Assembly (NCBI RefSeq): GCF_910592395.1
Contig: NC_088320.1
Coordinates: forward strand, 4,712,001-4,776,000
DNA length: 64,000 nucleotides
Reading direction: 5' to 3'
Origin: Lineus longissimus
Taxonomy: Eukaryota > Nemertea > Pilidiophora > Heteronemertea > Lineidae
Positions within the stretch are counted from its first letter, which is position 1, and every line of letters starts with the position of its first letter. This document shows, one piece after another, positions 29,503 to 64,000 of this stretch. Under the pieces are notes generated by a model, which was not told where the DNA came from, did not search any database, and saw nothing but the letters and a program-made list of their open reading frames with translations. A program made the translations under genes and the position numbers.

Positions 29503-30986
29503 CTAGGCCGGTGTCGCCCCGTCGTCGGTAGCAGCGTCTGTGCCATCTCCGGCAGAATCATCTGCAGGAGCTGAGTCATCTGCAGGAGCTGAGTCATCTG
29601 CTGAAGCGCCGCTCGAGTCATCCCCTCCTAAAATGTAAAATAGAATTGGCATTAACAATATATCTGCTTGTGAAAACTCGTCAGGTTTAATCAATCTACT
29701 GGACGCAACGACAGTTCATCTACTAGAAATAAAAGCTATGTCAGCTTTTTCTTTTTTCCTTTTTGTAGAAAGACAAACGATTACTACGAAGTGATGCTTT
29801 CAATGAGCACATGCAGCTTACTGCATATTAGAAATAATACACACCAGCAGTCTACCTATTCGTATTCCTACAGCAGGTGCCTCTGTTACACATTAAGCCT
29901 TTTACATGTATGAACCTTTTGTACAGGCTTCGCTCAACCGGCTTGATTTCATCGACGCAGTATATATACATGTATATGCAGATTATATTGCACCCTCACA
30001 CTCTTCAAAAATCTAAAATTAAAACTGAGGATAAGATTGGTTTCTCATCCATACAAACTGATAAATCTTTGAAAGATTAATCTTATATTGATTTGTGGCC
30101 TATATTCTGAGATTGTTACCATATCATCTCACCCCATGTACATGTACATGGATTTAAAATAAACCGCACTTCGCAGTGTAAACGCGCTATGCGCCTAGGA
30201 AGCCTCGTTTTGGTTGGGCAAGCCAAAACCGCTTAAGTTGGTGCAAAATACCGGAGTTCACCAAAACCGCTCGGGTAGGGATGAGTGTTGGTCTACAATT
30301 TAGCTCCACCCTCGCGGTTTTGGTGAGACAGCCAATATATACAGTTCGGTATCAATTCCTCAAACCAAACAGCTGGATAGGTATATTTAAGCATGCTAAA
30401 AGGCATAAACTTACCGCTGCAAACATACGAGTCGACATCGTTATTACTTCCGTCTTTTTTCCCCGCGACCGTATCGATCAGGTAACACTTGCTGGAGGTT
30501 TTGTTGAAGTCGACCGCCTCACAGCCATCTGCACAAGCTGCTTTACATGATTCAGCGTCGGAGATTCCTGACTCTTCCTTCCCACCAAAATATTGGTGGT
30601 TGGGCTGTTCGTCCCAGTTGGCGCATCCGTTTGCTGCAATAAAACAGAAAGACAAGCCATGAAATTTACCGTGTCGTAATTTCATAGCCACACCCAAGAT
30701 CGGCGACCTCATGAAGATACTAATTTGAGACATTGTTTACGTTCTTACACAATGTGCTTCTGAAATCAGTATGTGCCTTCCGTAAAAGACCCTCATTCTG
30801 ATTAGGACGACGTGGGGGTTCGAATTAAATCGTTTGGGATCTGATATACATTGAACTTTATGGATGATCCTCCCGATTTAAGTGTGGCGTAAACGCTTGA
30901 TTGATCAGTATACACGTGCTCTTACCTGTTTTTCTTGATAAAACAGCAAACGCAATCGCCAACAGGATACCGGTCTGAGCCTGCAT
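29503..30986 (-). CDS. Small secreted PAN-domain protein B (three exons, 134 aa, acidic tail)
   Basis: Exons 30926-30986, 30415-30633 and 29503-29627, phase 1 throughout, give 134 codons plus TAG. Exon 1 encodes a signal peptide (MQAQTGILLAIAFAVLS). Exon 2 has exactly the same length as in gene A (219 nt) and the same six-cysteine PAN pattern, with CKAACADGC, KCYLIDTVAGK and SYVC. Exon 3 instead encodes a 40-residue acidic tail with a tandem DDSAPA repeat followed by DG- and TDD-rich sequence. Intron and 3' flanking homology to gene A show a segmental tandem duplication, after which the tails diverged. Confidence 0.88.
30259..30325. repeat. Intronic hairpin in PAN gene B
   Basis: Perfect 12-bp inverted arms CACCAAAACCGC (30259-30270) and GCGGTTTTGGTG (30314-30325) with a 43-bp loop, in the second intron. 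A counterpart lies in gene A. Another AAAACCGC word just outside at 30221-30232 may be part of the same decayed element. Confidence 0.7.
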
Positions 30987-31877: not shown

Positions 31878-31883
31878 TTTATT
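31878..31883 (-). terminator. Polyadenylation signal of the giant gene
   Basis: AATAAA on the minus strand about 90 bases after the stop at 31972. Confidence 0.65.
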
Positions 31884-31971: not shown

Positions 31972-32000
31972 TTACTTCTTCGATTCGGAGACCGAGATGC
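31972..32000 (-). CDS. Giant gene, last coding exon
   Basis: After the acceptor TTTTCCAG it reads, in phase 1, R-ISVSESKK and a TAA stop. It accepts the split codon left by the exon at 32839-32868, and an AATAAA follows about 90 bases on. Confidence 0.65.
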
Positions 32001-35000
32001 CTGGAAAATAATGCGTTTAAACCATTAATGAAAAGATAAATTGTCAACTTTACATCTTCCTACAATTTTGACGAGAACACCGAAAAAACTCTGATTTTAT
32101 CTGCATGCAAGATATCTGTCGTATCTAAGACATCTCAATTTTAAGAAGTGCTCACTTTCTTTTAGAATAAGCATAAGGTCAATTGCATATTTTAAGACCT
32201 GTTTATTTCAACAATGCTGCATTGTCACTGTTGACGTTTGATTTAAATGCTTTGCTTATTGGTAATGATCAACCATGCACGCTGTTTGATGATTTCTTTA
32301 AACATCTTGGAAATTCGTTCTCTCTATATTTAAGATGAACATTTCCATTCTAAAGAGGACATTATTATGTCGACAAGAAATACTACCGTATTTTTCTCCA
32401 TTTTTCTTTACTGAAAATTAAAAGGAGGAATGCAATTAGAGAAGCAAAAATCAAAGGCTCTCGTCACCTGGGCTCCTAGGCCAAGGACACAATCTAGTCG
32501 GATAAATTCATGTATAGCAGCTATACGAAATACACTGAACACCTTCTATTAAGGTATCTATCGTGACTATTCCGTTAAACACTATCTTCCGTGACAACTT
32601 CTCCATAAAAAGAATAAGAAAATGGCTATTAGACATGTTAGAAGATTCGTTTAATATTATATGGAATTTCATAACCTTCAATTCATATTTCCCTGCTCTG
32701 ATCACACGCACTGTTATAAATCCTAGGTTTCAGATATGTTATTAGTGGCAATTAACATGATTAATGACGTTAGACAACAATGACGACCTTGATCGACTAA
32801 AGAGAGGTAATATGAGATCTGAACGAATTGCTACTCACGCCATGCCGTGAATTTCTCAGCATCATTGACTGAAAAAATAAGCCTGGGATTGAACTTATGA
32901 AACCTCATGATATGTGAATATTAGGCCTACCTACTAAACACATATTCATTGTATTTCTATTTATTTCGCCAACCTGCAAACATGTCATTAGTGTCTTGAT
33001 TTGCATTTTGAATTAGAGCTGTGGTCTGTACAATTGCGTTGGAATCCTGAAATACTCCTTTGTTTAACGGACATTTAGACACTAAACATTTTCAAATGAA
33101 CTTTTAAAATGTTTATTTTACTCTTTCAGCAGTTAAACGTACCGACACAGCTGCTACCTCTGGCTACAGTGCCGGATACACATGTTCCCTCGAACATAGT
33201 ATTGGGGAAGTCCTGGCCGACGGCAAAACCGCTACCGCCCTCAGTAGTGGTTGTAGTAGTGTAAGATGTTGTGGAACCAGCTTGATATAAAAATATATTT
33301 TGTTTAGATATTTGATCTAAAGTCGCTGTGTGGTAATAAACCATGACAACTCCATGACAGAGTCCAGAAATCACCGACAGAAATGCACATGACACGATAG
33401 TCGGGACTGACATCTCAATTTGAGCAGACACGATTTCAAAGACGTATATGCCTATCAAGCAGGATTAAATATATACCAAAGTATATGCCTATCAATCAGG
33501 ACATACTATCTCATACAAAGTACGCACGACATAGCAGGGTTGTCAAACGCGATTCATAAGGCTTGATTGCGGCTGCAGAATGTTCCAGGTACAGTTTCAA
33601 ATCAAGAAGCCATCACGTTACAGTTCATACAAACATACCAGCAGGCTCCTCAATTTCCTCAGATTTCTCAGATTCCTCAGATTTCTCTGGTTCCTCAGCA
33701 CTCTCAACTGCGGTAAAAAATGAAAATCAACTGAAGGCAGGCTTAAATTGGCAAACTATAAAGCCGGTTTCACAATATGCTGCTTCATTTACCGCATAGA
33801 GATATGGGACATTGCATACGGCAGAATCAGCTCAAATTTAGTTGTGGTGCACCGTAAAGTGAGGCATGCGATATACAGCAAATTAACACGTTTTTCTTCA
33901 GTGGTATGGGCGAAGGCAACAGAGGCAATACCGCTGGAAGTTCAGTATGCCATTTGTAGGTACTATGTATTTCTGAAGAATCGCTTTTTATCTTTCTTCT
34001 CGTCTTTCATTTATAAGATACATTATTGCCAGTTTGAGGTTATAGTGTGCACACGTTGTTTTTCTTTGGGATCGTATGATTCGAGTGTTTGCTTTTGAAG
34101 ATGTTAAGTGCCAATTAAATGTCGTTTCAGACCCTCCATCATCTGGGATACAGTTACGAAACACATCATACATCTATTATCCTTCTGGTGACAACAACCG
34201 AATACTGAATAAGGAAGTTGTCTTTCACATACCCTGATACTCAATGTCGTAAGCCTTGGCGTTCACCTTTACTGGAGAGAGAAAACAAAATAATATTTAA
34301 GGGGCAGGCATTTTATCACCCTAAGTGACTTGATCCGGCACACAGGACCATGAAAACCTCGTAAAAATGCACTCACATGAATAATTTACTTCTGTGCGGA
34401 CAGTTATTGCAGACCATCTGTGTTTGCAATATTCATTTTTATATTTTCTCTCTCCATTGAGTTGGGAGAAACTATCAAAAATTAAAAACTAACTTCGTTA
34501 AAACTACTTACACCATGCAAGAAACTTGTTGACATCATTGACTGAAAATATAGATAAGTAGATATTGAATAAGTTGTATTGCATTTATGTAGCAAAATCG
34601 GCGATTCCTATCAAAAAGTTATGATGATAAAAATAAATGGTTAGAATAGTTATTCTTTATTGTTAAAGTTATTTTGAAATTATGACTTACATTATGCTAC
34701 GAGTGATTCTATTGGTACAATATAATCTTTTATTGACCCATACATTTATTACTAGCAAAATCTTAGCCACCAATTTCCAGTAGAATTTATTTGGTTAATT
34801 TGAGATTGCCAAACAGCACTGTTTGAATTCAGAGTGTATTTCAATACCCTTAGTTAAAAATGTGGTACTTAATGTTCGGAACAACGCTGTGTGTGCACGC
34901 TGCATGTTCTAGGGTGTTTACCTTCACAGAATTTCCCCACGGTCTTGGTACCGCTTGGACAGTGACCTCTAAACATACTAATACCAAATCGCTGACCCAC

Positions 35001-38000
35001 GGAGAATTGGTTGGACGTGGTCGTTGTCGTGGTGGTGACTGAAATTACATGTTTTGTTCGAACATTGACAGACTGAGCGTAAACTCGACAAGCATTCATA
35101 CCCAGGTCGAAATATATCAATAATATAGTCAGTGAGAGTCCTCTTCTGTCTCAACGTGAAATTTTGATCTGCACTAACACACCGAATACAATATAATGAT
35201 TGTGATAAAAGAATTACTCGCGGCAAATCAGGTATAACTTATTTTACATCATGTAAGTGAACTCATCACCTGAATTTCCATTGCCACCTTTAACTGCAAT
35301 AAGATGAAAAATTGACAGGCGAACAGAACAAAAGATAGGCACGTGCAATGCAGTTGATAAATTCATCACACCACTTATAAAACCGTTGAATTATTCTTGG
35401 ACCAGCAAAGTGCACTTAAATGCATAGTACTTTATTAGAACTCATCAATTCAAAGAGGAACATCGATGTTTACAAGATTATTTCGAAAAGGTAATAAGAA
35501 TCCTGACACCCCTGATGGGTAGACATTGCTTTAGAATAAGCTAAAAATGAGCCCAGAATTGCACCGAAAAAAAACGGCAATAAGCATTAGCCTCAACGGA
35601 ACGTTCGTGCAAAATCAGCTGATCGAGGTCTGAATTTGAGTCCACCCATCAAAAGCTTAGCTATCTCATGCAAAGTACGCACGACATAGCAGGGTGGTCA
35701 AACGTGATTCATAAGGCTTGATTGTGGCTGCAGAATGTCCCAGGTACTGTTACAAATCAAGAAGCCAATCACGTTACAGTTCATACAAACATACCAGCAG
35801 GCTCCTTAATTTCCTCAGATTTCTCAGATTCCTCAGGTTTCTCTGGTTCCTCAGCACTCTCAACTGCGGTAAAAAATAAAAATAAACTGAAGGCAGGCTT
35901 AAATTTGCAAACTATAAAGCCGGTTTCACAATATGCTGCTTCATTTACCGCATAGAGATATTAGACATTGCATACGGCAGAATCAGCTCAAATTTTGTTG
36001 TGGTGCACCGTAAAGTGAGGCATGCGATATACAGCAAATTAACACGTTTTTCTTCAGTGGTATGGGCGAAGGCAACACAGGCAATACCGCTGGAACTTCA
36101 GTATGCCATTTGTAGGTACTATGTATTTCTGAAGAATCACTTTTTATCTTTCTTCTCGTCTTTCAATTATAAGATACATTATTGCCAGTTTGAGGTTATA
36201 GTGTGCACACGTTGTGTTTTTTTTGGGATCGTATGATTCGGGTGTTTGATTTTGAAGATGTTAAGTGCCAATTAAATGTAGTTTCAGACCCTCCATCATC
36301 CGGGATACATTTACGAAACACATCATACATCTATTATCCTTCTGGTGACAACAACCGAATACTGAATAAGGAAGTCGTCTTTTACATACCCTGATACTCA
36401 ATGTTGTAAGCCTTGGCGTTCACCTTTACTGGAGAGAGAAAACAAAATAATATTTAAGGGGCAGGCACTTTATCACCCTAAGTGACTTGATCCGGCACAC
36501 AGGACCATGAAAACCTCGTAATAATGCACTCACACGAATAATTTACTTCTGTGCGGACAGTTATTGCAGGCCATCTGTGTTTGCAATATTCATTTTTATA
36601 TTTTCTCTCTCCATTGAGTTGGGAGTAACTATCAAAAATTAAAAACTGACTTCGTTAAAACTACTTACACCATGCAAGAAACTTGTTGACATCATTGACT
36701 GAAAATATAGATAAGTAAATATTGAATAAGTTGTATTGCATTTATGTAGCAAAATCGGCGATTCCTATCAAAAAGTTATGATGATAAAAATAAATGGTTA
36801 GAATAGTTATTCTTTATTGTTAAAGTTATTTTGAAATTATGACTTACATTATGCTACGAGTGATTCTATTGGTACAATATAATCTTTTATTGATCCATAC
36901 AATTATTACTAGCAAAATCTTAGCCACCAATTTCCAGTAGAATTTTTTGGGTTAATTTGAGATTGCCAAACAGCACTGTTTGAATTCAGAGTGTATTTCA
37001 ATACCCTTAGTTAACAATGTGGTACTTAATGTTCGGAACAACGCTGTGTGTGCACGCTGCATGTTCTAGGGTGTTTACCTTCACAGAATTTCCCCACGGT
37101 CTTGGTACCGCTTGGACAGTGACCTCCAAACATACTAATATCAAATCGCTGGCCCACGGAGAATTGGTTGGACGTGGTCGTTGTCGTGGTGGTGACTGAA
37201 ATTACATGTTTTGTTCGGACATTGACAGACTGAGCGTAAACTCGACAAGATTTAATACCCAGGTCGAAATATATCAATAATATAGTCAGTGAGAGTCCTC
37301 TTCTGTCTCAACGTGAAATTTTGATCTGCACTAACACACCGAATACAATATAATGATTGTGATAAAAGAATTACTCGCGGCAAATCAAGTATAACTTATT
37401 TTACATCATGTAAGTGAACTCATCACCTGAATTTCCATTGCCACCTTTAACTGCAATAAAAGGAAAAATTGACAGGCGAACACAACAAAAGATAGGCACG
37501 TGCAATGCAGTTGATAAATTCATCACACCACTTATAAAACCGTTGAATTATTCTTGGACCAGCAAAGTGCACTTAAATGCATAGTACTTCATTAGAACTC
37601 ATCAATTCAAAGAGGAACATCGATGTTTACAAGATTATTTTGAAAAGGTAATAAAAATCCTGACACCCCTGATGGGTAGACATTGCTTTAGAATAAGCTA
37701 AAAATGAGCCCATAATAGTCCCGAAAAAAACGGCAGTAATCATTAGCCTCAACGGAACCGTTCGTGCAAAATCAGCTGATCGAGGTCTGAATTTGGGTCC
37801 ACCCACCAAAAGCTTAGCTATCTCATGCAAAGTACGCACGTCATAGCAGGGTGGTCAAACGTGATTCATAAGGCTTGATTGTGGCTGCAGAATGTCCCAG
37901 GTACAGTTACAAATCAAGAAGCCAATCACGTTACAGTTCATACAAACATACCAGCAGGCTCCTTAATTTCCTCAGATTTCTCAGATTCCTCAGATTTCTC

Positions 38001-41000
38001 TGGTTCCTCAGCACTCTCAACTGCGGTAAAAATGAAATTCAACTGAAGGCAGGCTTAAATTGGCAAACTATAAAGCCGGTTTCACAATATGCTGCTTCAT
38101 TTACCGCATAGAGATATTAGACATTGCATACGGCAGAATCAGCTCAAATTTTGTTGTGGTGTACCGTAAAGTGAGGCATGCGATATACAGCAAATTAACA
38201 CGTTTTTCTTCAGTGGTATGGGCGGAGGCAACAGAGGCAATACCGCTGGAACTTCAGTATGCCATTTGTAGGTACTATGTATTTCTGAAGAATCACTTTT
38301 TATCTTTCTTCTCGTCTTTCATTTATAAGATACATTATTGCCAGTTTGAGGTTATAGTGTGCACACGTTGTGTTTTTTTGGGGATCGTATGATTCGGGTG
38401 TTTGATTTTGAAGATGTTAAGTGCCAATTAAATGTAGTTTCAGACCCTCCATCATCCGGGATACATTTACGAAACACATCATACATCTATTATCCTTCTG
38501 GTGACAACAACCAAATACTGAATAAGGAAGTCGTCTTTTACATACCCTGATACTCAATGTCGTAAGCCTTGGCGTTCACCTTTACTGGAGAGATAGAAAA
38601 CAAAATAATATTTAAGGGGCAGGCATCTTATCACCCTAAGTGACTGGTTCCGGCACACAGGACCACGAAAACCTCGTAAAAATGCACTCACATGAATAAT
38701 TTACTTCTGTGCGGACAGTTACTGCAGACCATTTTTATCTGTGTTTGCAATACTCAATTTTATATTTTCTCTCTCCATTGAGTTGGGAGTAACTACCAAA
38801 AATTAAAAACTGACTTCGTTAAAACTACTTACACCATGCAAAAAACTTGTTGACATCATTGACTGAAAATATAGATAAGTAGATATTGAATAAGTTGTAT
38901 TGCATTTATGTAGCAAAATCGGCGATTACTATCAAAAAGTTATGATGATAAAAATAAATGGTTAGAATAGTTATTCTTTATTGTTAAAGTTATTTTGAAA
39001 TTATGACTTACATTATGCTACGAGTGATTCTATTGGTACAATATAATCTTTTATTGACCATACAATTATTACTAGCAAAATCTTAGCCACCAATTTCCAG
39101 TAGAATTTTTTTGTTAATTTGAGATTGCCAAACAGCACTGTTTGAATTCAGAGTGTATTTCAATACCCTTAGTTAACAATGTGGTACTTAATGTTCGGAA
39201 CAACGCTGTGTGTGCACGCTGCATGTTCTAGGGTGTTTACCTTCACAGAATTTCCCCACGGTCTTGGTACCGCTTGGACAGTGACCTCTAAACATACTAA
39301 TACCAAATCGCTGACCCACGGAGAATTGGTTGGACGTGGTCGTTGTCGTGGTGGTGACTGAAATTACATGTTTTGTTCGAACATTGACAGACTGAGCGTA
39401 AACTCGACAAGCATTCATACCCAGGTCGAAATATATCAATAATATAGTCAGTGAGAGTCCTCTTCTGTCTCAACGTGAAATTTTGATCTGCACTAACACA
39501 CCGAATACAATATAATGATTGTGATAAAAGAATTACTCGCGGCAAATCAGGTATAACTTATTTTATATCATGTACGTGAACTCATCACCTGAAGTTCCAT
39601 TGCCACCTTTAACTGAAATAAAATGAAAAATTGACAGGCGAACACAACAAAAGATAGGCACGTGCAATGCAGTTGATAAATTCATCACACCACTTATAAA
39701 ACCGTTGAATTATTCTTGGACCAGCAAAGTGCACTTAAATGCATAGTACTTCATTAGAACTCATCAATTCAAAGAGCAACATCGATGTTTACAAGATTAT
39801 TTTGAAAAGGTAATAAGAATCCTGACACCCCTGATGGGTAGACATTGCTTTAGAATAAGCTAAAAATGAGCCCATGATAGTCCCGAAAAAAAAAACGGCA
39901 GTAAGCATTAGCCTCAACGGAACAGTTCGTGCAAAATCAGCTGATCGAGGTCTGAATTTGGGTCCACCCACCAAAAGCTTTGCTATCTCATGAAAAGTAC
40001 GCACGACATAGCAGGGTGGTCAAACGTGATTCATAAGGCTTGATTGTGGCTGCAGAATGTCCCAGGTACAGTCACAAATCAAGAAGCCAATCACGTTACA
40101 GTTCATACAAACATACCAGCAGGCTCCTTAATTTCCTCAGATTTCTCAGATTCCTCAGATTTCTCTGGTTCCTCAGCACTCTCAACTGCGGTAAAAAATG
40201 AAAATCAACTGAAGGCAGGCTTAAATTGGCAAACTATAAAGCCGGTTTCACAATATGCTGCTTCATTTACCGCATAGAGATATTAGACATTGCATACGGC
40301 AGAATCAGCTCAAATTTTGTTGTGGTGCACCGTAAAGTGAGGCATGCGATATACAGCAAATTAACACGTTTTTCTTCAGTGGTATGGGCGAAGGCAACAC
40401 AGGCAATACCGCTGGAACTTCAGTATGCCATTTGTAGGTACTATGTATTTCTGAAGAATCACTTTTTATATTTCTTCTCGTCTTTCATTTATAAGATACA
40501 TTATTGCCAGTTTGAGGTTATAGTGTGCACACGTTGTGTTTTTTTGGGGATCGTATGATTCGGGTGTTTGATTTTGAAGATGTTAAGTGCCAATTAAATG
40601 TCGTTTCAGACCCTCCATCATCCGGGATACATTTACGAAACACATCATACATCTATTATCCTTCTGGTGACAACAACCGAATACTGAATAAGGAAGTCGT
40701 CTTTTACATACCCTGATACTCAATGTCGTAAGCCTTGGCGTTCACCTTTACTGGAGAGATAGAAAACAAAATAATATTTAAGGGGCAGGCATTTTATCAC
40801 CCTAAGTGACTTGATCCGGCACACAGGACCATGAAAACCTCGTAAAAATGCACTCACATGAATAATTTACTTCTGTGCGGACAGTTACTGCAGACCATTT
40901 TTATCTGTGTTTGCAATACTCAATTTTATATTTTCTCTCTCCATTGAGTTGGGAGTAACTATCAAAAATTAAAAACTGACTTCGTTAAAACTACTTACAC

Positions 41001-53000: not shown

Positions 53001-56000
53001 GTCTACCCTTAACTATAGCGAACAGGCACAGCTCTATTTAAGTATGGATATCATAAAGCAAATTAGGGTTATTTTTAGCAGGAACAAATAAAAGAGGCCA
53101 CCAATCAAACGCTCATTAATCTAATTATGGTTCGCGCAAAATGATCTCGCCAATTCTCTAAATTCGGCAATACTACGAAACTCCTTGTAGACAATGTGTC
53201 ACTCGAATACATCTTGAAAATTGATCGAATGCATGCATGTTGTAAGTCATGTTTAGCCTACCTTTTCTAAAGTTTCGCTTCAGAGTCGTCGAGTATTGGA
53301 AAGCACCTATCTTGTTGTAGAAGTGATAGTTTCTGTTATTAGTGTAGACCAGGCCTTTGCAGGCGGAGTTCTTCAGGAGGCAATAGCTGGCTTTACCACG
53401 ACTCACAAATATGAAGGTCTCGCAATCGGCTAAGCGCCAGCATTGTTTGGCACAGAATTTCACGTTGGTCTTGGTGTAGTGTGCAATATTGTTCTTTCCA
53501 GGGCAATCCCCGTAGCGTTGGCTAAATCCCGGAACGAAGAACTCTGAAATGATATCAGGGTGTGGAAATAACATTACCTGTCAAAGTCTGTATCAAACAA
53601 CTCCGAGGACTACACAAATATGCACCTTTTAGAGGTTTTCAGCAAAGTGTGAAACCTGTTGAAATATTTCACAATCTCCATCTCCAAACCGTTTGAGCGT
53701 TTTTTTCTCGTTTTTTTACAGAACAACCTCGGCAGAGTTGTGCTGGCCAAAAAATAAATCTAAACACTTTTCAGAAACCTAAAAACCTTTTCTTCTAAGA
53801 GTGAGGCTGTGAATAAATATTGATCTTTGAATAATAATGCGTCTGTTGGGTCAACTCAATGCATTTGATAACTTACCAGTTGAAGGGTATCCTAACACTT
53901 CCACTTCGCAAAGTGTCAAGTAATTGGCTCTGGATTGAACAATAGCTACATATCTGCCGTCTCTCTGGCATCTGAATGCCTCATGTCCACCTTGTCTCAC
54001 AGCACCAGTCTTGTGAGCACACACCTCAGACCTGCTATACACGAGCTTTCTTCCTGGTGCTGGTCTTCTGTCGGATACAACGACATCAAAATTTGCCAGT
54101 CTATTACCTGCAATCAACAAACTTTCTGTTAGTATCGGAATCTAGGAAGATACTCAATGAAACTTTACTACACACTTTGTCGATGTAGAACTGTTGCTGT
54201 ACACTGTTAAAGATTGTTTATGATGTATTCGCTACTTACTGTTTCTTTATATTAATTCATTCCAAAGAAGGTCAAACGTTTGCGAGGTTTTAGTGCAATA
54301 TTGTTTACATTTATTAACTTCAATCTACTACACAACCATTGTGATTCTACAAACTATACAGAGACCTAACTTACCGCAACAGTCTGCTCTGTTGTAGACT
54401 ACGACTGTGTGGATGGATGATTTTCTCGATAAATCCACCGCCCACCAGTTTTTGTTGACTCGGTCCCTCGTATTGACGTTTGTGCATGTGCAATGTCTGG
54501 CCCCGTAGTTTTGATTGATGACTCCATCAACGGCCCGAGAAGCTACACCACCATAAGCAGTATCAAATTGCATAGCTGGTTTATGCAGTGCTAAGTCGAC
54601 CAAATGTTTTGGTACCGCAACTGCGACTTGCTGGAAGCTGCGCAGGTTAATTCTGAATCTGCCAGCATTTCTCCTACAACACAAAAGCAATCGTTATATT
54701 TCTGTACACGTTCGGTTGCTGTAATACAGTAAACTTGATCTTTGCGAGGAGATTGAAGGAAGAGCAATATACATGTGACGCAAGCATTTTTCATTACCAA
54801 AAGAGGACGGCGGAACAAAATCCAACTTACAATAGGCCACAAACATGTCATTTATATATTTAGTATCAAACTATAATATTATCCAAAACAAAGTCTATTT
54901 CTAAAACTACATGTAATCAAGCATGCAGTTGCAATGATGGATGGACAGAGCATACCTTATCCATTTTCGGAAGAATCTCACATTGAAAACTCTGCAATTT
55001 TTACTCTTGCCAATTCTCTTGGTTCCAGGCATGCACTTGTTGAGGCGGAACCATCTGAGGCGTATGATACCACCTGAAATAACGAACGTGAATTATCAAT
55101 TGTGATACGCGAAATACAAATTTCATTTTTTGATCTTCTCATTATAGTTAGTCGTGACATTTAAGTTTTTAATCAGTCTACCCTTAACTATAGCGAACAG
55201 GCACAGCTCTATTTAAGTATGGATATCATAAAGCAAATTAGGGTTATTTTTAGCAGGAACAAATAAAAGAGGCCACCAATCAAACGCTCATTAATCTAAT
55301 TATGGTTCGCGCAAAATGATCTCGCCAATTCTCTAAATTCGGCAATACTACGAAACTCCTTGTAGACAATGTGTCACTCGAATACATCTTGAAAATTGAT
55401 CGAATGCATGCATGTTGTAAGTCATGTTTAGCCTACCTTTTCTAAAGTTTCGCTTCAGAGTCGTCGAGTATTGGAAAGCACCTATCTTGTTGTAGAAGTG
55501 ATAGTTTCTGTTATTAGTGTAGACCAGGCCTTTGCAGGCGGAGTTCTTCAGGAGGCAATAGCTGGCTTTACCACGACTCACAAATATGAAGGTCTCGCAA
55601 TCGGCTAAGCGCCAGCATTGTTTGGCACAGAATTTCACGTTGGTCTTGGTGTAGTGTGCAATATTGTTCTTTCCAGGGCAATCCCCGTAGCGTTGGCTAA
55701 ATCCCGGAACGAAGAACTCTGAAATGATATCAGGGTGTGGAAATAACATTACCTGTCAAAGTCTGTATCAAACAACTCCGAGGACTACACAAATATGCAC
55801 CTTTTAGAGGTTTTCAGCAAAGTGTGAAACCTGTTGAAATATTTCACAATCTCCATCTCCAAACCGTTTGAGCGTTTTTTTCTCGTTTTTTTACAGAACA
55901 ACCTCGGCAGAGTTGTGCTGGCCAAAAAATAAATCTAAACACTTTTCAGAAACCTAAAAACCTTTACTTCTAAGAGTGAGGCTGTGAATAAATATTGATC

Positions 56001-59000
56001 TTTGAATAATAATGCGTCTGTTGGGTCAACTCAATGCATTTGATAACTTACCAGTTGAAGGGTATCCTAACACTTCCACTTCGCAAAGTGTCAAGTAATT
56101 GGCTCTGGATTGAACAATAGCTACATATCTGCCGTCTCTCTGGCATCTGAATGCCTCATGTCCACCTTGTCTCACAGCACCAGTCTTGTGAGCACACACC
56201 TCAGACCTGCTATACACGAGCTTTCTTCCTGGTGCTGGTCTTCTGTCGGATACAACGACATCAAAATTTGCCAGTCTATTACCTGCAATCAACAAACTTT
56301 CTGTTAGTATCGGAATCTAGGAAGATACTCAATGAAACTTTACTACACACTTTGTCGATGTAGAACTGTTGCTGTACACTGTTAAAGATTGTTTATGATG
56401 TATTCGCTACTTACTGTTTCTTTATATTAATTCATTCCAAAGAAGGTCACACGTTTGCGAGGTTTTAGTGCAATATTGTTTACATTTATTAACTTCAATC
56501 TACTACACAACCATTGTGATTCTACAAACTATACAGAGACCTAACTTACCGCAACAGTCTGCTCTGTTGTAGACTACGACTGTGTGGATGGATGATTTTC
56601 TCGATAAATCCACCGCCCACCAGTTTTTGTTGACTCGGTCCCTCGTATTGACGTTTGTGCATGTGCAATGTCTGGCCCCGTAGTTTTGATTGATGACTCC
56701 ATCAACGGCCCGAGAAGCTACACCACCATAAGCAGTATCAAATTGCATAGCTGGTTTATGCAGTGCTAAGTCGACCAAATGTTTTGGTACCGCAACTGCG
56801 ACTTGCTGGAAGCTGCGCAGGTTAATTCTGAATCTGCCAGCATTTCTCCTACAACACAAAAGCAATCGTTATATTTCTGTACACGTTCGGTTGCTGTAAT
56901 ACAGTAAACTTGATCTTTGCGAGGAGATTGAAGGAAGAGCAATATACATGTGACGCAAGCATTTTTCATTACCAAAAGAGGACGGCGGAACAAAATCCAA
57001 CTTACAATAGGCCACAAACATGTCATTTATATATTTAGTATCAAACTATAATATTATCCAAAACAAAGTCTATTTCTAAAACTACATGTAATCAAGCATG
57101 CAGTTGCAATGATGGATGGACAGAGCATACCTTATCCATTTTCGGAAGAATCTCACATTGAAAACTCTGCAATTTTTACTCTTGCCAATTCTCTTGGTTC
57201 CAGGCATGCACTTGTTGAGGCGGAACCATCTGAGGCGTATGATACCACCTGAAATAACGAACGTGAATTATCAATTGTGATACGCGAAATACAAATTTCA
57301 TTTTTTGATCTTCTCATTATAGTTAGTCGTGACATTTAAGTTTTTAATCAGTCTACCCTTAACTATAGCGAACAGGCACAGCTCTATTTAAGTATGGATA
57401 TCATAAAGCAAATTAGGGTTATTTTTAGCAGGAACAAATAAAAGAGGCCACCAATCAAACGCTCATTAATCTAATTATGGTTCGCGCAAAATGATCTCGC
57501 CAATTCTCTAAATTCGGCAATACTACGAAACTCCTTGTAGACAATGTGTCACTCGAATACATCTTGAAAATTGATCGAATGCATGCATGTTGTAAGTCAT
57601 GTTTAGCCTACCTTTTCTAAAGTTTCGCTTCAGAGTCGTCGAGTATTGGAAAGCACCTATCTTGTTGTAGAAGTGATAGTTTCTGTTATTAGTGTAGACC
57701 AGGCCTTTGCAGGCGGAGTTCTTCAGGAGGCAATAGCTGGCTTTACCACGACTCACAAATATGAAGGTCTCGCAATCGGCTAAGCGCCAGCATTGTTTGG
57801 CACAGAATTTCACGTTGGTCTTGGTGTAGTGTGCAATATTGTTCTTTCCAGGGCAATCCCCGTAGCGTTGGCTAAATCCCGGAACGAAGAACTCTGAAAT
57901 GATATCAGGGTGTGGAAATAACATTACCTGTCAAAGTCTGTATCAAACAACTCCGAGGACTACACAAATATGCACCTTTTAGAGGTTTTCAGCAAAGTGT
58001 GAAACCTGTTGAAATATTTCACAATCTCCATCTCCAAACCGTTTGAGCGTTTTTTTCTCGTTTTTTTACAGAACAACCTCGGCAGAGTTGTGCTGGCCAA
58101 AAAATAAATCTAAACACTTTTCAGAAACCTAAAAACCTTTACTTCTAAGAGTGAGGCTGTGAATAAATATTGATCTTTGAATAATAATGCGTCTGTTGGG
58201 TCAACTCAATGCATTTGATAACTTACCAGTTGAAGGGTATCCTAACACTTCCACTTCGCAAAGTGTCAAGTAATTGGCTCTGGATTGAACAATAGCTACA
58301 TATCTGCCGTCTCTCTGGCATCTGAATGCCTCATGTCCACCTTGTCTCACAGCACCAGTCTTGTGAGCACACACCTCAGACCTGCTATACACGAGCTTTC
58401 TTCCTGGTGCTGGTCTTCTGTCGGATACAACGACATCAAAATTTGCCAGTCTATTACCTGCAATCAACAAACTTTCTGTTAGTATCGGAATCTAGGAAGA
58501 TACTCAATGAAACTTTACTACACACTTTGTCGATGTAGAACTGTTGCTGTACACTGTTAAAGATTGTTTATGATGTATTCGCTACTTACTGTTTCTTTAT
58601 ATTAATTCATTCCAAAGAAGGTCAAACGTTTGCGAGGTTTTAGTGCAATATTGTTTACATTTATTAACTTCAATCTACTACACAACCATTGTGATTCTAC
58701 AAACTATACAGAGACCTAACTTACCGCAACAGTCTGCTCTGTTGTAGACTACGACTGTGTGGATGGATGATTTTTTCGATAAATCCACCGCCCACCAGTT
58801 TTTGTTGACTCGGTCCCTCGTATTGACGTTTGTGCATGTGCAATGTCTGGCCCCGTAGTTTTGATTGATGACTCCATCAACGGCCCGAGAAGCTACACCA
58901 CCATAAGCAGTATCAAATTGCATAGCTGGTTTATGCAGTGCTAAGTCGACCAAATGTTTTGGTACCGCAACTGCGACTTGCTGGAAGCTGCGCAGGTTAA

Positions 59001-62000
59001 TTCTGAATCTGCCAGCATTTCTCCTACAACACAAAAGCAATCGTTATATTTCTGTACACGTTCGGTTGCTGTAATACAGTAAACTTGATCTTTGCGAGGA
59101 GATTGAAGGAAGAGCAATATACATGTGACGCAAGCATTTTTCATTACCAAAAGAGGACGGCGGAACAAAATCCAACTTACAATAGGCCACAAACATGTCA
59201 TTTATATATTTAGTATCAAACTATAATATTATCCAAAACAAAGTCTATTTCTAAAACTACATGTAATCAAGCATGCAGTTGCAATGATGGATGGACAGAG
59301 CATACCTTATCCATTTTCGGAAGAATCTCACATTGAAAACTCTGCAATTTTTACTCTTGCCAATTCTCTTGGTTCCAGGCATGCACTTGTTGAGGCGGAA
59401 CCATCTGAGGCGTATGATACCACCTGAAATAACGAACGTGAATTATCAATTGTGATACGCGAAATACAAATTTCATTTTTTGATCTTCTCATTATAGTTA
59501 GTCGTGACATTTAAGTTTTTAATCAGTCTACCCTTAACTATAGCGAACAGGCACAGCTCTATTTAAGTATGGATATCATAAAGCAAATTAGGGTTATTTT
59601 TAGCAGGAACAAATAAAAGAGGCCACCAATCAAACGCTCATTAATCTAATTATGGTTCGCGCAAAATGATCTCGCCAATTCTCTAAATTCGGCAATACTA
59701 CGAAACTCCTTGTAGACAATGTGTCACTCGAATACATCTTGAAAATTGATCGAATGCATGCATGTTGTAAGTCATGTTTAGCCTACCTTTTCTAAAGTTT
59801 CGCTTCAGAGTCGTCGAGTATTGGAAAGCACCTATCTTGTTGTAGAAGTGATAGTTTCTGTTATTAGTGTAGACCAGGCCTTTGCAGGCGGAGTTCTTCA
59901 GGAGGCAATAGCTGGCTTTACCACGACTCACAAATATGAAGGTCTCGCAATCGGCTAAGCGCCAGCATTGTTTGGCACAGAATTTCACGTTGGTCTTGGT
60001 GTAGTGTGCAATATTGTTCTTTCCAGGGCAATCCCCGTAGCGTTGGCTAAATCCCGGAACGAAGAACTCTGAAATGATATCAGGGTGTGGAAATAACATT
60101 ACCTGTCAAAGTCTGTATCAAACAACTCCGAGGACTACACAAATATGCACCTTTTAGAGGTTTTCAGCAAAGTGTGAAACCTGTTGAAATATTTCACAAT
60201 CTCCATCTCCAAACCGTTTGAGCGTTTTTTTCTCGTTTTTTTACAGAACAACCTCGGCAGAGTTGTGCTGGCCAAAAAATAAATCTAAACACTTTTCAGA
60301 AACCTAAAAACCTTTTCTTCTAAGAGTGAGGCTGTGAATAAATATTGATCTTTGAATAATAATGCGTCTGTTGGGTCAACTCAATGCATTTGATAACTTA
60401 CCAGTTGAAGGGTATCCTAACACTTCCACTTCGCAAAGTGTCAAGTAATTGGCTCTGGATTGAACAATAGCTACATATCTGCCGTCTCTCTGGCATCTGA
60501 ATGCCTCATGTCCACCTTGTCTCACAGCACCAGTCTTGTGAGCACACACCTCAGACCTGCTATACACGAGCTTTCTTCCTGGTGCTGGTCTTCTGTCGGA
60601 TACAACGACATCAAAATTTGCCAGTCTATTACCTGCAATCAACAAACTTTCTGTTAGTATCGGAATCTAGGAAGATGCTTTAATAACAACTCAATGAAAC
60701 TTTACTACACACTTTGTCGATGTAGAACTGTTGCTGTACACTGTCAAAGATTGTTTATGATGTATTCGCTACTTACTGTTTCTTTTTATTAATTCATTCC
60801 AAAGAAGGTCAAACGTTTGCGAGGTTTTAGTGCAATATTGTTTAACTTCATTAACTTCAATCTACTACACAACCATTGTGATTCTACAAACTATACAGAG
60901 ACCTAACTTACCGCAACAGTCTGCTCTGTTGTAGACTACGACTGTGTGGATGGATGATTTTCTCGATAAATCCACCGCCCACCAGTTTTTGTTGACTCGG
61001 TCCCTCGTATTGACGTTTGTGCATGTGCAATGTCTCGCCCCGTAGTTTTGATTGATGACTCCATCAACGGCCCGAGAAGCTACACCACCATAAGCAGTAT
61101 CAAATTGCATAGCTGGTTTATGCAGTGCTAAGTCGACCAAATGTTTTGGTACCGCAACTGCGACTTGCTGGAAGCTGCGCAGGTTAATTCTGAATCTGCC
61201 AGCATTTCTCCTACAACACAAAAGCAATCGTTATATTTCTGTAACGTTCGGTTGCTGTAAATACAGCAAACTTGATCTTTGCGAGGAGATTGAAGGAAGA
61301 GCAATATACATGTGACGCGAGCATTTTTCATTACCAAAAGAGGACGGCGGAACAAAATCCAACTTACAATAGGCCACAAACATGTCATTTATATACATGT
61401 ATTTAGTATCAAACTATAATATTATCCAAAACAAAGTCTATTTCTAAAACTACATGTAATCAAGCATGCAGTTGCAATGATGGATGGACAGAGCATACCT
61501 TATCCATTTTCGGAAGAATCTCACATTGAAAACTCTGCAATTTTTACTCTTGCCAATTCTCTTGGTTCCAGGCATGCACTTGTTGAGGCGGAACCATCTG
61601 AGGCGTATGATACCACCTGAAATAACGAACGTGAATTATCAATTGTGATACGCGAAATACAAATTTCATTTTTTGATCTTCTCATTATAGTTAGTCGTGA
61701 CATTTAAGTTTTTAATCAGTCTACCCTTAACTATAGCGAACAGGCACAGCTCTATTTAAGTATGGATATCATAAAGCAAATTAGGGTTATTTTTAGCAGG
61801 AACAAATAAAAGAGGCCACCAATCAAACGCTCATTAATCTAATTATGGTTCGCGCAAAATGATCTCGCCAATTCTCTAAATTCGGCAATACTACGAAACT
61901 CCTTGTAGACAATGTGTCACTCGAATACATCTTGAAAATTGATCGAATGCATGCATGTTGTAAGTCATGTTTAGCCTACCTTTTCTAAAGTTTCGCTTCA

Positions 62001-64000
62001 GAGTCGTCGAGTATTGGAAAGCACCTATCTTGTTGTAGAAGTGATAGTTTCTGTTATTAGTGTAGACCAGGCCTTTGCAGGCGGAGTTCTTCAGGAGGCA
62101 ATAGCTGGCTTTACCACGACTCACAAATATGAAGGTCTCGCAATCGGCTAAGCGCCAGCATTGTTTGGCACAGAATTTCACGTTGGTCTTGGTGTAGTGT
62201 GCAATATTGTTCTTTCCAGGGCAATCCCCGTAGCGTTGGCTAAATCCCGGAACGAAGAACTCTGAAATGATATCAGGGTGTGGAAATAACATTACCTGTC
62301 AAAGTCTGTATCAAACAACTCCGAGGACTACACAAATATGCACCTTTTAGAGGTTTTCAGCAAAGTGTGAAACCTGTTGAAATATTTCACAATCTCCATC
62401 TCCAAACCGTTTGAGCGTTTTTTTCTCGTTTTTTTACAGAACAACCTCGGCAGAGTTGTGCTGGCCAAAAAATAAATCTAAACACTTTTCAGAAACCTAA
62501 AAACCTTTACTTCTAAGAGTGAGGCTGTGAATAAATATTGATTTTTGAATAATAATGCGTCTGTTGGGTCAACTCAATGCATTTGATAACTTACCAGTTG
62601 AAGGGTATCCTAACACTTCCACTTCGCAAAGTGTCAAGTAATTGGCTCTGGATTGAACAATAGCTACATATCTGCCGTCTCTCTGGCATCTGAATGCCTC
62701 ATGTCCACCTTGTCTCACAGCACCAGTCTTGTGAGCACACACCTCAGACCTGCTATACACGAGCTTTCTTCCTGGTGCTGGTCTTCTGTCGGATACAACG
62801 ACATCAAAGTTTGCCAGTCTATTACCTGCAATCAACAAACTTTCTGTTAGTATCGGAATCTAGGAAGATACTCAATGAAACTTTACTACACACTTTGTCG
62901 ATGTAGAACTGTTGCTGTACACTGTTAAAGATTGTTTATGATGTATTCGCTACTTACTGTTTCTTTATATTAATTCATTCCAAAGAAGGTCAAACGTTTG
63001 CGAGGTTTTAGTGCAATATTGTTTAACTTTATTAACTTCAATCTACTACACAACCATTGTGATTCTACAAACTATACAGAGACCTAACTTACCGCAACAG
63101 TCTGCTCTGTTGTAGACTACGACTGTGTGGATGGATGATTTTCTCGATAAATCCACCGCCCACCAGTTTTTGTTGACTCGGTCCCTCGTATTGACGTTTG
63201 TGCATGTGCAATGTCTGGCCCCGTAGTTTTGATTGATGACTCCATCAACGGCCCGAGAAGCTACACCACCATAAGCAGTATCAAATTGCATAGCTGGTTT
63301 ATGCAGTGCTAAGTCGACCAAATGTTTTGGTACCGCAACTGCGACTTGCTGGAAGCTGCGCAGGTTAATTCTGAATCTGCCAGCATTTCTCCTACAACAC
63401 AAAAGCAATCGTTATATTTCTGTACACGTTCGGTTGCTGTAATACAGTAAACTTGATCTTTGCGAGGAGATTGAAGGAAGAGCAATATACATGTGACGCA
63501 AGCATTTTTCATTACCAAAAGAGGACGGCGGAACAAAATCCAACTTACAATAGGCCACAAACATGTCATTTATATATTTAGTATCAAACTATAATATTAT
63601 CCAAAACAAAGTCTATTTCTAAAACTACATGTAATCAAGCATGCAGTTGCAATGATGGATGGACAGAGCATACCTTATCCATTTTCGGAAGAATCTCACA
63701 TTGAAAACTCTGCAATTTTTACTCTTGCCAATTCTCTTGGTTCCAGGCATGCACTTGTTGAGGCGGAACCATCTGAGGCGTATGATACCACCTGAAATAA
63801 CGAACGTGAATTATCAATTGTGATACGCGAAATACAAATTTCATTTTTTGATCTTCTCATTATAGTTAGTCGTGACATTTAAGTTTTTAATCAGTCTACC
63901 CTTAACTATAGCGAACAGGCACAGCTCTATTTAAGTATGGATATCATAAAGCAAATTAGGGTTATTTTTAGCAGGAACAAATAAAAGAGGCCACCAATCA
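31972..64000 (-). CDS. Giant modular secreted-type protein: PAN / F-type lectin repeats then Thr-rich Cys-motif repeats (3' part, open at right edge)
   Basis: This is one multi-exon gene inferred from uninterrupted phase-compatible exons on the minus strand. In transcript order: six copies of a four-exon unit encoding PAN, cysteine-motif and F-type lectin domains (the first copy cut by the window edge); a spacer with small exons; seven copies of a five-exon, 93-aa unit; a divergent last module; and a stop. About 2,550 residues are encoded here. Nearly every junction is phase 1; only the one before the first lectin exon is phase 2. The 5' end, including any signal peptide, is outside the window. 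PAN and F-type lectin modules are typical of extracellular recognition proteins (family knowledge). Thr runs and KSEE repeats suggest glycosylated or charged linkers. An adhesive, mucus or lectin role is inference. The join between the two arrays rests on small exons and is the least certain part. Confidence 0.75.
32839..32868 (-). CDS. Giant gene, divergent terminal copy of the VND-x-FxAW exon
   Basis: A 30-nt phase-1 exon encoding VNDAEKFTAW. It has the same length, acceptor context (TTTTTTCAG) and pattern as the VNDVNKFLAW exon of the 93-aa repeats. Confidence 0.75.
33143..33280 (-). CDS. Giant gene, divergent terminal copy of the Thr-rich Cys-motif exon
   Basis: A 138-nt phase-1 exon. 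It has a Thr run (SYTTTTTTEGG), then FAVGQDF...MFEGTC and a second cysteine twelve residues on (SSC). It aligns with the repeated exon, where the matching text is FSVGQRF...MFRGHC and KFC, but it has lost the GTK-TVG core. The acceptor (ATATCAAG) has a weak pyrimidine tract. Confidence 0.7.
33506..35660 (-). repeat. 93-aa repeat array, unit 1 (five exons)
   Basis: Reference unit, about 2.16 kb. Exons in transcript order: B 35270-35293 (VKGGNGNSG); A 34922-35038 (seven Thr, then FSVGQRFGISMFRGHCPSG and TKTVGKFCEG); E 34512-34541 (VNDVNKFLAW); D 34233-34271 (KVNAKAYDIEYQG); C 33639-33707 (VESAEEPEKSEESEKSEEIE then EPAG). Each is bounded by AG and GT, and each begins and ends in phase 1. Together they make 279 nt or 93 aa. 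Intron sequence is as well conserved between units as exon sequence, pointing to recent duplication of whole genomic blocks. Confidence 0.85.
35661..37817 (-). repeat. 93-aa repeat array, unit 2
   Basis: Exons B 37427-37450, A 37079-37195, E 36669-36698, D 36390-36428, C 35795-35863. Splice sites and exon lengths are identical to unit 1. Module D reads DIEY with Asn at the preceding position variant (TACAACATTGAG), and module A has GG in place of RG before HC. Confidence 0.83.
37818..39982 (-). repeat. 93-aa repeat array, unit 3
   Basis: Exons B 39589-39612 (reads VKGGNGTSG), A 39241-39357, E 38833-38862, D 38546-38584, C 37952-38020. All splice sites are kept. In E the Leu-Ala-Trp end is preceded by FF (AACAAGTTTTTTGCATGG). 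Confidence 0.83.
39983..42146 (-). repeat. 93-aa repeat array, unit 4
   Basis: Exons B 41757-41780, A 41409-41525, E 40999-41028, D 40712-40750, C 40117-40185. Frame and splice sites are intact; differences from unit 1 lie mainly in introns. Confidence 0.83.
42147..44300 (-). repeat. 93-aa repeat array, unit 5
   Basis: Exons B 43911-43934, A 43564-43680, E 43155-43184, D 42876-42914, C 42281-42349. Exon E starts AAAATGATG instead of TCAATGATG, so its first codon becomes Glu while the acceptor AG is kept. D again carries the Asn variant seen in unit 2. Confidence 0.83.
44301..46471 (-). repeat. 93-aa repeat array, unit 6
   Basis: Exons B 46082-46105, A 45735-45851, E 45321-45350, D 45036-45074, C 44435-44503. 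In C the sequence before the acceptor reads CTACCGCAG rather than TTACCGCAG; the AG is unaffected. E has GTCGAC in place of GTCAAC (Asp for Asn). Confidence 0.83.
46472..48113 (-). repeat. 93-aa repeat array, unit 7 (first in the transcript, lacks exon B)
   Basis: Exons A 47911-48027, E 47499-47528, D 47214-47252, C 46606-46674. Homology to the other units stops abruptly at about 48113, before exon B. The small exon at 48623-48640 may serve in its place. Confidence 0.8.
48623..48640 (-). CDS. Giant gene, 18-nt candidate microexon
   Basis: Acceptor ATTTTCAG, then sequence for VERLPIG, then donor GTAAGA; phase 1 to phase 1. It lies where exon B would be expected upstream of array unit 7. Very short, so only moderately supported. 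Confidence 0.45.
49293..49322 (-). CDS. Giant gene, diverged VND-x-FxAW-type exon
   Basis: A 30-nt phase-1 exon reading x-THYQFFITW between ATTGCAG and GTAAGT. Length, phase and the final Phe-x2-Trp match exon E (VNDVNKFLAW) of the repeats. Confidence 0.65.
49668..49751 (-). CDS. Giant gene, diverged Cys-motif exon without Thr run
   Basis: An 84-nt phase-1 exon encoding GGKFDLTSVFKGLTSCPKGT followed by KTVGDAC. The FxGxxxCP-x-GTKTVG-x2-C pattern is clearly that of repeat exon A, but the Thr stretch is absent. Together with the E-like exon at 49293 it forms a diverged single copy of the 93-aa module. Confidence 0.8.
50078..50119 (-). CDS. Giant gene, 42-nt candidate linker exon
   Basis: Acceptor TATCTAG, donor GTATTT, phase 1 both ends. 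Encodes a basic, Thr/Pro-containing linker (ATAPTKLTKSNLKKG). Confidence 0.55.
50780..50803 (-). CDS. Giant gene, 24-nt candidate linker exon
   Basis: Acceptor TTGAATAG, donor GTAAGT, phase 1 both ends. Encodes VENKPPAKP once joined to the next exon; same length as repeat exon B. Confidence 0.5.
51234..51254 (-). CDS. Giant gene, 21-nt candidate linker exon
   Basis: Acceptor ATTTTCAG, donor GTAGGC, phase 1 both ends; encodes GINILPKG. It directly follows the last lectin exon (51690-51920) in the transcript. Confidence 0.5.
51485..53669 (-). repeat. PAN / Cys-motif / F-type lectin array, unit 1 (last in transcript)
   Basis: Reference unit. PAN exon 53262-53543 (C...CAKQC...DCETF...YC...C, ends with HFYN; phase 1-1). 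Cys-motif exon 52781-52898 (WFRLNKCMPGTKRIGKSKNC, very basic; phase 1-2). Lectin exon 1 52200-52498 (LHKPAMQFDTAYGGVASRAV, DGV, NWWAVDL, VVVYNRADCCG; phase 2-1). Lectin exon 2 51690-51920 (NRLANFDVVVSD...GRYVAIVQS...LCEVEVLGY; phase 1-1). Total 930 nt or 310 aa. RADCCGNR fits the F-type lectin pattern R-x-D-x4-R. The histidine usual in that sugar site appears replaced: the aligned text reads CTCT where fucose-binding members have C-x-H-T. Confidence 0.88.
53670..55844 (-). repeat. PAN / Cys-motif / F-type lectin array, unit 2
   Basis: Exons PAN 55437-55718, Cys-motif 54956-55073, lectin 54375-54673 and 53877-54107; 2175 bp. The PAN and Cys-motif proteins are identical to unit 1. Lectin exon 2 has AVRQGG where unit 1 has ALRQGG. 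Confidence 0.87.
55845..58019 (-). repeat. PAN / Cys-motif / F-type lectin array, unit 3
   Basis: Exons PAN 57612-57893, Cys-motif 57131-57248, lectin 56550-56848 and 56052-56282; 2175 bp. It differs from unit 2 by only a few bases, introns included (for example GTCACACG for GTCAAACG near 56447). Confidence 0.87.
58020..60194 (-). repeat. PAN / Cys-motif / F-type lectin array, unit 4
   Basis: Exons PAN 59787-60068, Cys-motif 59306-59423, lectin 58725-59023 and 58227-58457; 2175 bp. One coding change stands out: DLSKKSS in place of DLSRKSS in lectin exon 1. Confidence 0.87.
60195..62387 (-). repeat. PAN / Cys-motif / F-type lectin array, unit 5 (mosaic)
   Basis: Exons PAN 61980-62261, Cys-motif 61499-61616, lectin 60912-61210 and 60402-60632; 2193 bp. 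Its middle shares unit 1's intron variants (a TTTAATAAC insertion near 60680 and GTAACGTTCGG near 61239). Its left part carries unit 2's variants (CCTTTTCTTC near 60312, AVRQGG). It also has a private ATACATGT insertion near 61395. Confidence 0.87.
62388..64000 (-). repeat. PAN / Cys-motif / F-type lectin array, unit 6 (cut by window edge)
   Basis: Exons Cys-motif 63674-63791 and lectin 63093-63391 and 62595-62825 are present; the PAN exon should lie just past the right edge. The sequence is of the unit 2-4 type. The array therefore probably continues beyond the window. Confidence 0.87.

Follow-up and report, generated by a model that had tools for sequence, protein, structure and literature searches.

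The stretch of 64,000 nucleotides (nt) of the ribbon worm Lineus longissimus genome analyzed here (C13:4712001-4776000, hereafter the window) carries on its minus strand two tandem arrays of exons, which very probably are parts of a single giant gene. That the arrays belong to one gene, larger than first reported, is well supported by the features of its sequence. The initial annotation of the window had placed both arrays in one gene reaching beyond 64 kb; we found the arrays at the same place and, having read the upstream DNA from C13:4,776,001 to complete the model, followed the gene to extended coordinate 82757 (C13:4794757; extended coordinates are window coordinates run on beyond 64000). 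From there the model spans about 50.8 kb down to position 31972 and comprises 98 exons with 13,518 coding bases, encoding 4,505 residues without internal stops. As to the whole, the best explanation, which we consider rather probable, is one gene for a secreted mosaic protein that would act as a cationic cross-linker of mucus or of a surface coat. Secreted repeat proteins of giant size go into the making of mucus, glue and surface coats; to our knowledge, little is known of such proteins in ribbon worms.

Structure of the gene and its arrays

The predicted protein begins with MGTFSSPTLLILCVTIVAVNT, which was assigned as a signal peptide from its hydrophobicity and position and presumably sends the protein out of the cell. 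The signal-peptide exon is followed, upstream of the window and on the same strand, by two small exons, four PAN domains (PAN1-4), three units of a cysteine domain called here the Cys-motif, the third of which runs directly into a LamG domain, a fourth Cys-motif unit and PAN5. Then come nine units of PAN, Cys-motif and F-lectin domains (array 1), a linker, and nine further Cys-motif units, including the seven of array 2 and, on either side of it, two diverged copies of the same domain (Nd and Ct). The clean stop and the polyadenylation signal that had been annotated initially are present, the TAA ending at 31972 and the AATAAA starting at 31883.

All 97 introns have AG/GT borders and compatible phases, the internal exons being of phase 1-1 (75), 1-2 (10), 2-1 (10) and 2-2 (1); the splice borders and phases of the repeated exons noted in the initial annotation are borne out. 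Exon borders were picked by eye from an open frame and a matching phase, and outside the repeats the agreement of phases is in part a product of this choice. The introns have a median length of 336 and a maximum of 1,920 bases; those across the gap between the arrays (51.7-49.7 kb) measure 435, 430, 660, and 326 bases, as calculated from the model exon coordinates.

Array 1 consists of nine full units in the genomic DNA, the first beginning at extended coordinate 70979. The window covers six sets of exons B, C and D together with five PAN exons (23 exons), the sixth PAN exon lying just outside it (64436-64155), and the initial count of at least six units holds. Each unit is composed of exons A (282 nt, phase 1-1), B (118 nt, 1-2), C (299 nt, 2-1), and D (231 nt, 1-1), i.e., 930 nt or 310 residues. 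The nine units are 99.17-99.95% identical in their DNA and repeat with a period of 2175 or 2193 bases, differing by an 18-base length step and at single sites; over 9 x 310 residues there are three changes in total, one in each of three units.

Array 2 was initially described as seven 93-residue Thr-rich units. There are seven copies indeed, of which six have 93 residues (279 nt), while the seventh lacks the last small exon e and has 85. The copies differ by 1.8-3.3% in DNA, and all their frames are intact. Variable sites amount to 16 of 279 in exons and 156 of 1,897 in introns, i.e., the exons are only slightly more conserved, and pairwise codon differences (28 synonymous and 69 nonsynonymous) do not indicate strong purifying selection between the copies. 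The units of both arrays (930 and 279 nt) have lengths divisible by three, so that gain or loss of whole units keeps the frame.

A cysteine domain common to both arrays

The two arrays had been regarded as unrelated, which we reject, as both contain the Cys-motif domain. Residues 103-145 of the array-1 unit matched a profile of three array-2-type domains (the unit, Nd and Ct) with 21.7 bits (single-sequence E value 7.4e-9), and none of 2,000 shuffles exceeded 8.9 bits. The pattern is approximately C-P-x-G-T-K-x-x-G-x-x-C, followed by F-x-x-W-(L/I)-(K/R) and then by (Y/F)-x-I, and eight distinct versions of it within the gene can be aligned. A profile search of the 4,505-residue model counted 22 copies; the profile was built from four types, which match by construction, and the four copies of the 5' part are independent of it and scored 21.1-55.7 bits. 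In their DNA the arrays have nothing but short stretches in common, of which the best measures 25 bases, and because of this the likeness of their periods (2.16-2.19 kb) is taken for coincidence.

Judged by profile searches, the Cys-motif is a cysteine domain matching nothing in Pfam and NCBIfam: none of three stretches gave a match in the former at E values up to 10 or in the latter at E values up to 1, and the whole array-2 unit gave in Pfam only a chance-level hit to Spore_Cse60 (E 0.13). Nothing convincing was found with the Cys-motif profiles among 34 database proteins fetched (best E 0.23), nor at E 0.1 with the array-2 units alone among 3,012 candidates; searches of the PDB with exon A and with the array-2 unit yielded no useful match. 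The three protein searches covered candidates of about 170-540, 170-535 and 460-1,450 residues, a range outside which giant homologues, including the record of the gene itself, would fall.

One gene or two

Between array 1 and Nd lies a gap in which three small exons, lk1-lk3, were first chosen by eye. A splice-site scan of 49752-51689, using general splice weights rather than ones trained on L. longissimus, gave exactly these three as phase 1-1 candidates, with a mean of 0.12 expected (1 of 300 dinucleotide shuffles reached three), and no such candidate on the opposite strand. Outside phase 1-1 the same scan gave four readings, one each in classes 1-2, 2-2, 0-0, and 0-2, about 1.2 being expected over the eight other classes.

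A gene start inside the gap was considered and rejected: none of the six ATG-led stretches with phase-1 donors in 48650-51689 (nested ones included) resembles a signal peptide, and no first exon of that kind with a phase-1 donor was found in the matching gap of a paralogous locus at C13:3.05 Mb. The signal-peptide exon in 48-51.5 kb that the initial annotation had named as a sign of separate transcripts was, in other words, not convincingly found. The other sign named there, a stop with a poly(A) site just below 51.5 kb, has a potential counterpart in the sequence, which counts against our model: with an alternative acceptor at 51470 the reading would stop after VWRQRLSF and give a shorter protein, and an AATAAA is located at 51253 on the minus strand, inside the gap. 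Weighing against the model in its details is also the fact that several diverged 5' exon borders were chosen by eye and that small exons may have been missed, one intron having 1,920 bases. In the gene body, eight ATG-led readings passed a hydrophobicity filter of 2 or more, namely, the signal peptide of the 5' end (3.4), six array-2 readings into exon e (2.19-2.44) and a single one at 72.3 kb (2.09); the seven other than the signal peptide are regarded as chance.

It is very improbable that two adjacent genes for secreted proteins are present, one with F-lectin and PAN domains that ends at about 51.4 kb and one with Cys-motifs that starts in the gap. The in-frame stop behind the 51470 acceptor, the AATAAA and the sixfold hydrophobic reading into exon e could be cited for them, but no convincing start exon was found in either gap, the exon at 49751 (Nd) is open in phase 1 only, and lk3 adjoins Nd at three loci, each beginning with a signal-peptide exon and ending with a common cassette.

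Paralogous loci

A strong argument for the single gene comes from these loci. The one at C13:3.05 Mb (minus strand) comprises in its 5' part a signal-peptide exon, Cys-motifs, a Cys-motif with LamG, a Cys-motif and a PAN5-like domain, and in its 3' part alternating Cys-motif and LamG domains (three more LamG), then lk3, Nd, one u2 unit (of the array-2 type) and Ct. Its LamG region is 62% identical to that of the giant gene over 225 residues, and the PAN5-like domain 73%; of the queries PAN1, PAN2 and PAN4, the first two gave no match in this locus at E 0.02 and the third a weak partial one (E 0.01). The locus at C10:14.19-14.23 Mb (plus strand) comprises a signal-peptide exon, 11 PAN1-type domains, lk3 and Nd, and then, after about 15 kb, lk3, Nd, u2 and Ct; F-lectin, LamG and the array-1-type Cys-motif had no match in it at E 0.02.

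The signal-peptide exons of these loci share 12 of 21 (C13:3.07 Mb) and 17 of 21 residues (C10:14.19 Mb) with that of the giant gene. The three loci contain 396 hydrophobic ATG-led 21-mers without a stop (237, 69 and 90), of which the best other one shares 7; this control replaced a looser one of 1,668 ATG-led 21-mers unselected for hydrophobicity, where the best other shared 6. At the opposite end, the cassette lk3-Nd-u2-Ct occurs at both C13:3.05 Mb and C10:14.2 Mb, and lk3 of the C13 paralogue scored 48, and no other of the 79,924 positions scored above 23. Since two other loci repeat the plan, with a homologous signal-peptide exon at one end and the linker and Cys-motif cassette at the other, we read the window as containing one gene; this end-to-end arrangement at three loci, with different middles in between, argues strongly for it, as far as genomic sequence goes. 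The order of modules at the two paralogues rests on tblastn hits and exon scans, and gene pairs at all three loci are formally possible. The initial proposal of a single gene holding both arrays stands on the lack of a convincing start exon in the gap, the three phase 1-1 exons lying there and the repetition of the plan.

The amplified middles are PAN/Cys-motif/F-lectin in the giant gene, LamG/Cys-motif at C13:3.05 Mb and PAN at C10:14.2 Mb. To our mind the chances are even that the three loci represent a family of giant genes for secreted proteins, undescribed so far in nemerteans, which combine fixed ends and a new cysteine domain with interchangeable middles, and in which amplification of arrays would tune the length, charge and valency of a mucus or coat matrix. 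With common ends and different amplified middles, they lend themselves, as a natural series, to the study of intragenic exon arrays and their effect on a secreted material.

When the genome was searched with the array-2 domain, 13 matches were obtained (seven here, one at C13:3.05 Mb, two on C10 and three on C9; all 23 candidates were scored). The array-2-type Cys-motif matches at C9:5.08-5.13 Mb and C10:654 kb likely belong to further members of the family; in C9:5120001-5140000 there are two u2-type hits, the other modules having no match at E 0.02. The search with the Cys-motif/F-lectin part of array 1, in which 150 of 212 candidates were scored and the counts are lower bounds, gave at least 139 matches at E 0.001 or less, mostly to F-lectin exons of other loci; the Cys-motif exon of array 1 had at least nine matches at this locus and at least one at C13:3.06 Mb. 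At C8:20441012-20465285, F-lectin exon pairs spaced by about 3-4 kb form a tandem cluster, in which some first-exon matches read through TGA.

Domain assignments

In total, the model contains 22 Cys-motif, 14 PAN or PAN-like, nine F-lectin and one LamG domains. The initial calls of PAN and F-lectin hold, the former through a relative and the latter through direct profile and structure matches. Exon A alone scored 10.1-10.2 bits with the PAN profile, which is below the cut-off, and a single-sequence AlphaFold model of it was too poor for use (pLDDT 45). Over 75 residues, however, it shares 45% identity (E 2e-19) with the N-terminal domain of the L. longissimus protein P0020, which matches PAN_1 with 22.5 bits (cut-off 21.4), and the PAN/apple assignment is supported by way of this close relative. 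The 5' stretch with PAN1-4 as a whole scored 33.5 bits with PAN_1, and PAN5 19.8 bits, just under the cut-off. The LamG domain of the 5' part belongs to the laminin G/concanavalin-like group according to its match to PF13385 (51.4 bits, cut-off 27.6).

The F-lectin domain of array 1 matched PF22633 (55.8 bits, cut-off 27.8) and, among solved structures, FBP32 (3cqo, E 1.3e-25), which places it in the F-type lectin fold; with PF00754 it scored 25 bits, below the cut-off of 28.2. In F-type lectins the fucose-binding motif consists of a His followed after 24 residues by RxDx4(R/K), and the cation motif reads h2DGx, where x is N, D or S, according to the available part of a review (PMC5712786). 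As to the giant protein, the RxDx4R part is intact in all nine copies. The F-lectin of another L. longissimus protein, P0002, has Arg at the position of the His, which therefore varies within the family. Two side observations concern F-lectins elsewhere: P0015 (L. longissimus LOC135489122) joins three of these domains to a Cys-loop receptor ligand-binding domain, being either a real fusion or an annotation error, and P0001 from the green alga Bryopsis sp., the top database match of one protein search, has F-lectin-like domains with the canonical CTHT.

Each F-lectin domain contains seven cysteines instead of six, one of them odd. Its role as a cross-linking thiol was considered and is not pressed, as the same count gave seven for some relatives, too.

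Possible function

The mechanism that we propose is as follows. The signal peptide would direct the giant protein to secretion, and its repeated domains would offer many binding surfaces. The protein has a net charge (K+R minus D+E) of +485, distributed as +160 in the first 915 residues and +344 in array 1 (+504 in the first 3,705 together) and -19 in the last 800, and it may bind and cross-link polyanionic mucus or surface glycans by this charge and by contacts of the PAN, LamG and F-lectin folds. Its 191 cysteines could lend stability and perhaps form intermolecular disulfides. The copy number of the arrays would set the length and valency of the protein, units being gained or lost in frame. 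The cross-linking role in mucus or a surface coat is put forward tentatively, with slightly less than even confidence, and the initial idea of a protein serving as multivalent glue, mucus or coat is still a sensible guess.

A number of features weigh against this function or narrow it. In all nine F-lectin copies the fucose-binding His is replaced by Cys (CTCT) and the spacing is 31, i.e., the complete fucose motif is absent, and the cation motif reads DGV, departing from h2DGx. Because of these replacements glycan binding by the F-lectin domains, and with it sugar binding through the fold, appears doubtful; of the lectin-like reading given initially, the fold stands and the fucose and cation motifs are altered. 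Long Pro/Thr/Ser blocks are absent from the model, the richest 30-residue stretch having 15 such residues, which is not mucin-like, and N-glycosylation sequons number only four: the 5' part contains three of them and array 2 the remaining one, and array 1 is free of them. No VWD domain was found in Pfam scans, which covered one unit of each array, both Nd and Ct, and the 5' part. By these sequence traits the protein does not belong with gel-forming mucins or zonadhesin-like proteins. Given the charge, the cysteine content and the altered F-lectin motifs, we favor a cationic disulfide-rich cross-linker over a fucose lectin.

A structural protein of the extracellular matrix or glycocalyx of the epidermis or proboscis, rather than of shed mucus or glue, seems unlikely. 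The mix of domains, the size and the high cysteine content would suit it; however, no feature of the sequence points to a tissue or separates this reading from that of mucus. Somewhat less likely still is a humoral or mucosal immune recognition protein, whose PAN, LamG and F-lectin domains would agglutinate microbes. F-type lectins do include recognition proteins, often tandem or mosaic, as stated in the available part of PMC5712786, but the nine copies in question are near-identical, with three residue changes over whole units, and not diversified, and the fucose triad is broken in each of them. Finally, that the copy numbers of the near-identical units are partly an artefact of assembly is improbable: array 1 is about 19 kb long, its 2.2-kb units reach 99.95% identity, and 12-20 kb fragments were used for the L. 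longissimus assembly (PMC8593623, available part), but the units of array 1 differ at single sites and by the 18-base step and those of array 2 by 1.8-3.3%, and such an error would alter the number of units and not the structure of the gene. The secreted cross-linker is retained as the preferred reading.

Coordinates and neighboring sequences

Positions of the gene and its parts are given in Table 1. Just downstream of the giant gene, two similar PAN_1 stretches of other genes were found on the minus strand at 30293-30736 and 26325-26663 (22.5 and 23.1 bits). The window also contains collagen and VWC coding pieces at 1-6640 (minus), with a DDE_1 transposase-like open reading frame at 3949-4506 (plus) among them, an MFS_1-like transporter stretch at 14364-15209 (plus; PF12832, 101.6 bits) and a 174-base unit present twice in tandem at 28259-28607 (93% matches).

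Table 1. Positions of the predicted giant gene and its elements, in window coordinates unless marked as extended.
Feature	Position	Strand	Remarks
Giant gene, window part	31972..63791	minus	68 of 98 exons, 7,700 coding bases; continues upstream to 82757
Signal-peptide exon (putative)	82757-82694 (extended)	minus	5' end of gene, MGTFSSPTLLILCVTIVAVNT
Array 1, window part	51690..63791	minus	6 Cys-motif, 6 F-lectin, 5 PAN in window; 9 full units in genome
Exon A, last array-1 unit	53262..53543	minus	PAN domain, phase 1-1; starts of the other copies in the window: 62261, 60068, 57893, 55718
Exon B, last array-1 unit	52781..52898	minus	Cys-motif domain, phase 1-2
Exon C, last array-1 unit	52200..52498	minus	end of Cys-motif and first part of F-lectin, phase 2-1
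Exon D, last array-1 unit	51690..51920	minus	second part of F-lectin, phase 1-1
Linker exon lk1 (GINILPK)	51234..51254	minus	phase 1-1
Linker exon lk2 (VENKPPAK)	50780..50803	minus	phase 1-1
Linker exon lk3 (PTAPTKLTKSNLKK)	50078..50119	minus	phase 1-1; conserved at two other loci
Diverged Cys-motif unit Nd	48623..49751	minus	exons 49751-49668, 49322-49293, 48989-48957, 48640-48623
Array 2	33639..48027	minus	7 units of Thr-rich linker, Cys-motif and acidic linker; exons a-e of 117, 30, 39, 69, 24 nt
C-terminal diverged Cys-motif unit Ct	31972..33280	minus	exons 33280-33143, 32868-32839, 32410-32387, 32000-31972; TAA stop
AATAAA poly(A) signal	31878..31883	minus	downstream of TAA

Comparison with known systems

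Among the matches listed in literature searches on F-type lectins with PAN, F-lectin architectures, nemertean mucus, and adhesives, with subscription journals mostly outside their coverage, no paper presented this architecture in its title or the start of its abstract, and the term "PAN domain" is absent from the available main text of three papers on nemertean secretions and toxins (PMC11768458, PMC7460313, PMC10674772). Fucolectin homologues are among the genes upregulated in the proboscis of Antarctonemertes valida, according to the available part of PMC9132205.

Related architectures are found in L. longissimus itself. P0020 (LOC135491202, 572 residues) likewise has PAN followed by F-lectin, its PAN being the relative of exon A discussed above; unlike the giant protein, it has one copy of each, with canonical CTHT and RxDx4R, followed by matches to ShK and an M12B-like metallopeptidase, and no Cys-motif was found in it. 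The zonadhesin-like proteins P0021, P0022, P0024 and P0025 of the same species share an F-lectin domain 57-62% identical over the aligned part, but it is single and N-terminal in each, and neither an exon-A-like PAN nor a Cys-motif was found in them; L. longissimus carries F-lectin domains on VWD-bearing zonadhesin-like proteins of this kind, P0021 having, unlike the giant protein, an F-lectin followed by VWD, TIL, EGF, and FN2 domains.

Repetition of F-lectins within one chain is known from tandem F-type lectins such as MsaFBP32 and the Xenopus F-lectin/pentraxin fusions with five tandem domains; the partners named in the available part of the review are pentraxin, C-type lectin, CCP, and FA58C, PAN and the Cys-motif not being mentioned there (PMC5712786). 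As for function, the sea star footprint proteins (Sfp) may be compared by analogy only: PAN or Cys-motif repeats are not mentioned for them in the available part of the source (PMC9382459), but, like the protein predicted here, they are secreted, and they bring FA58C or galactose-binding domains into a bioadhesive.

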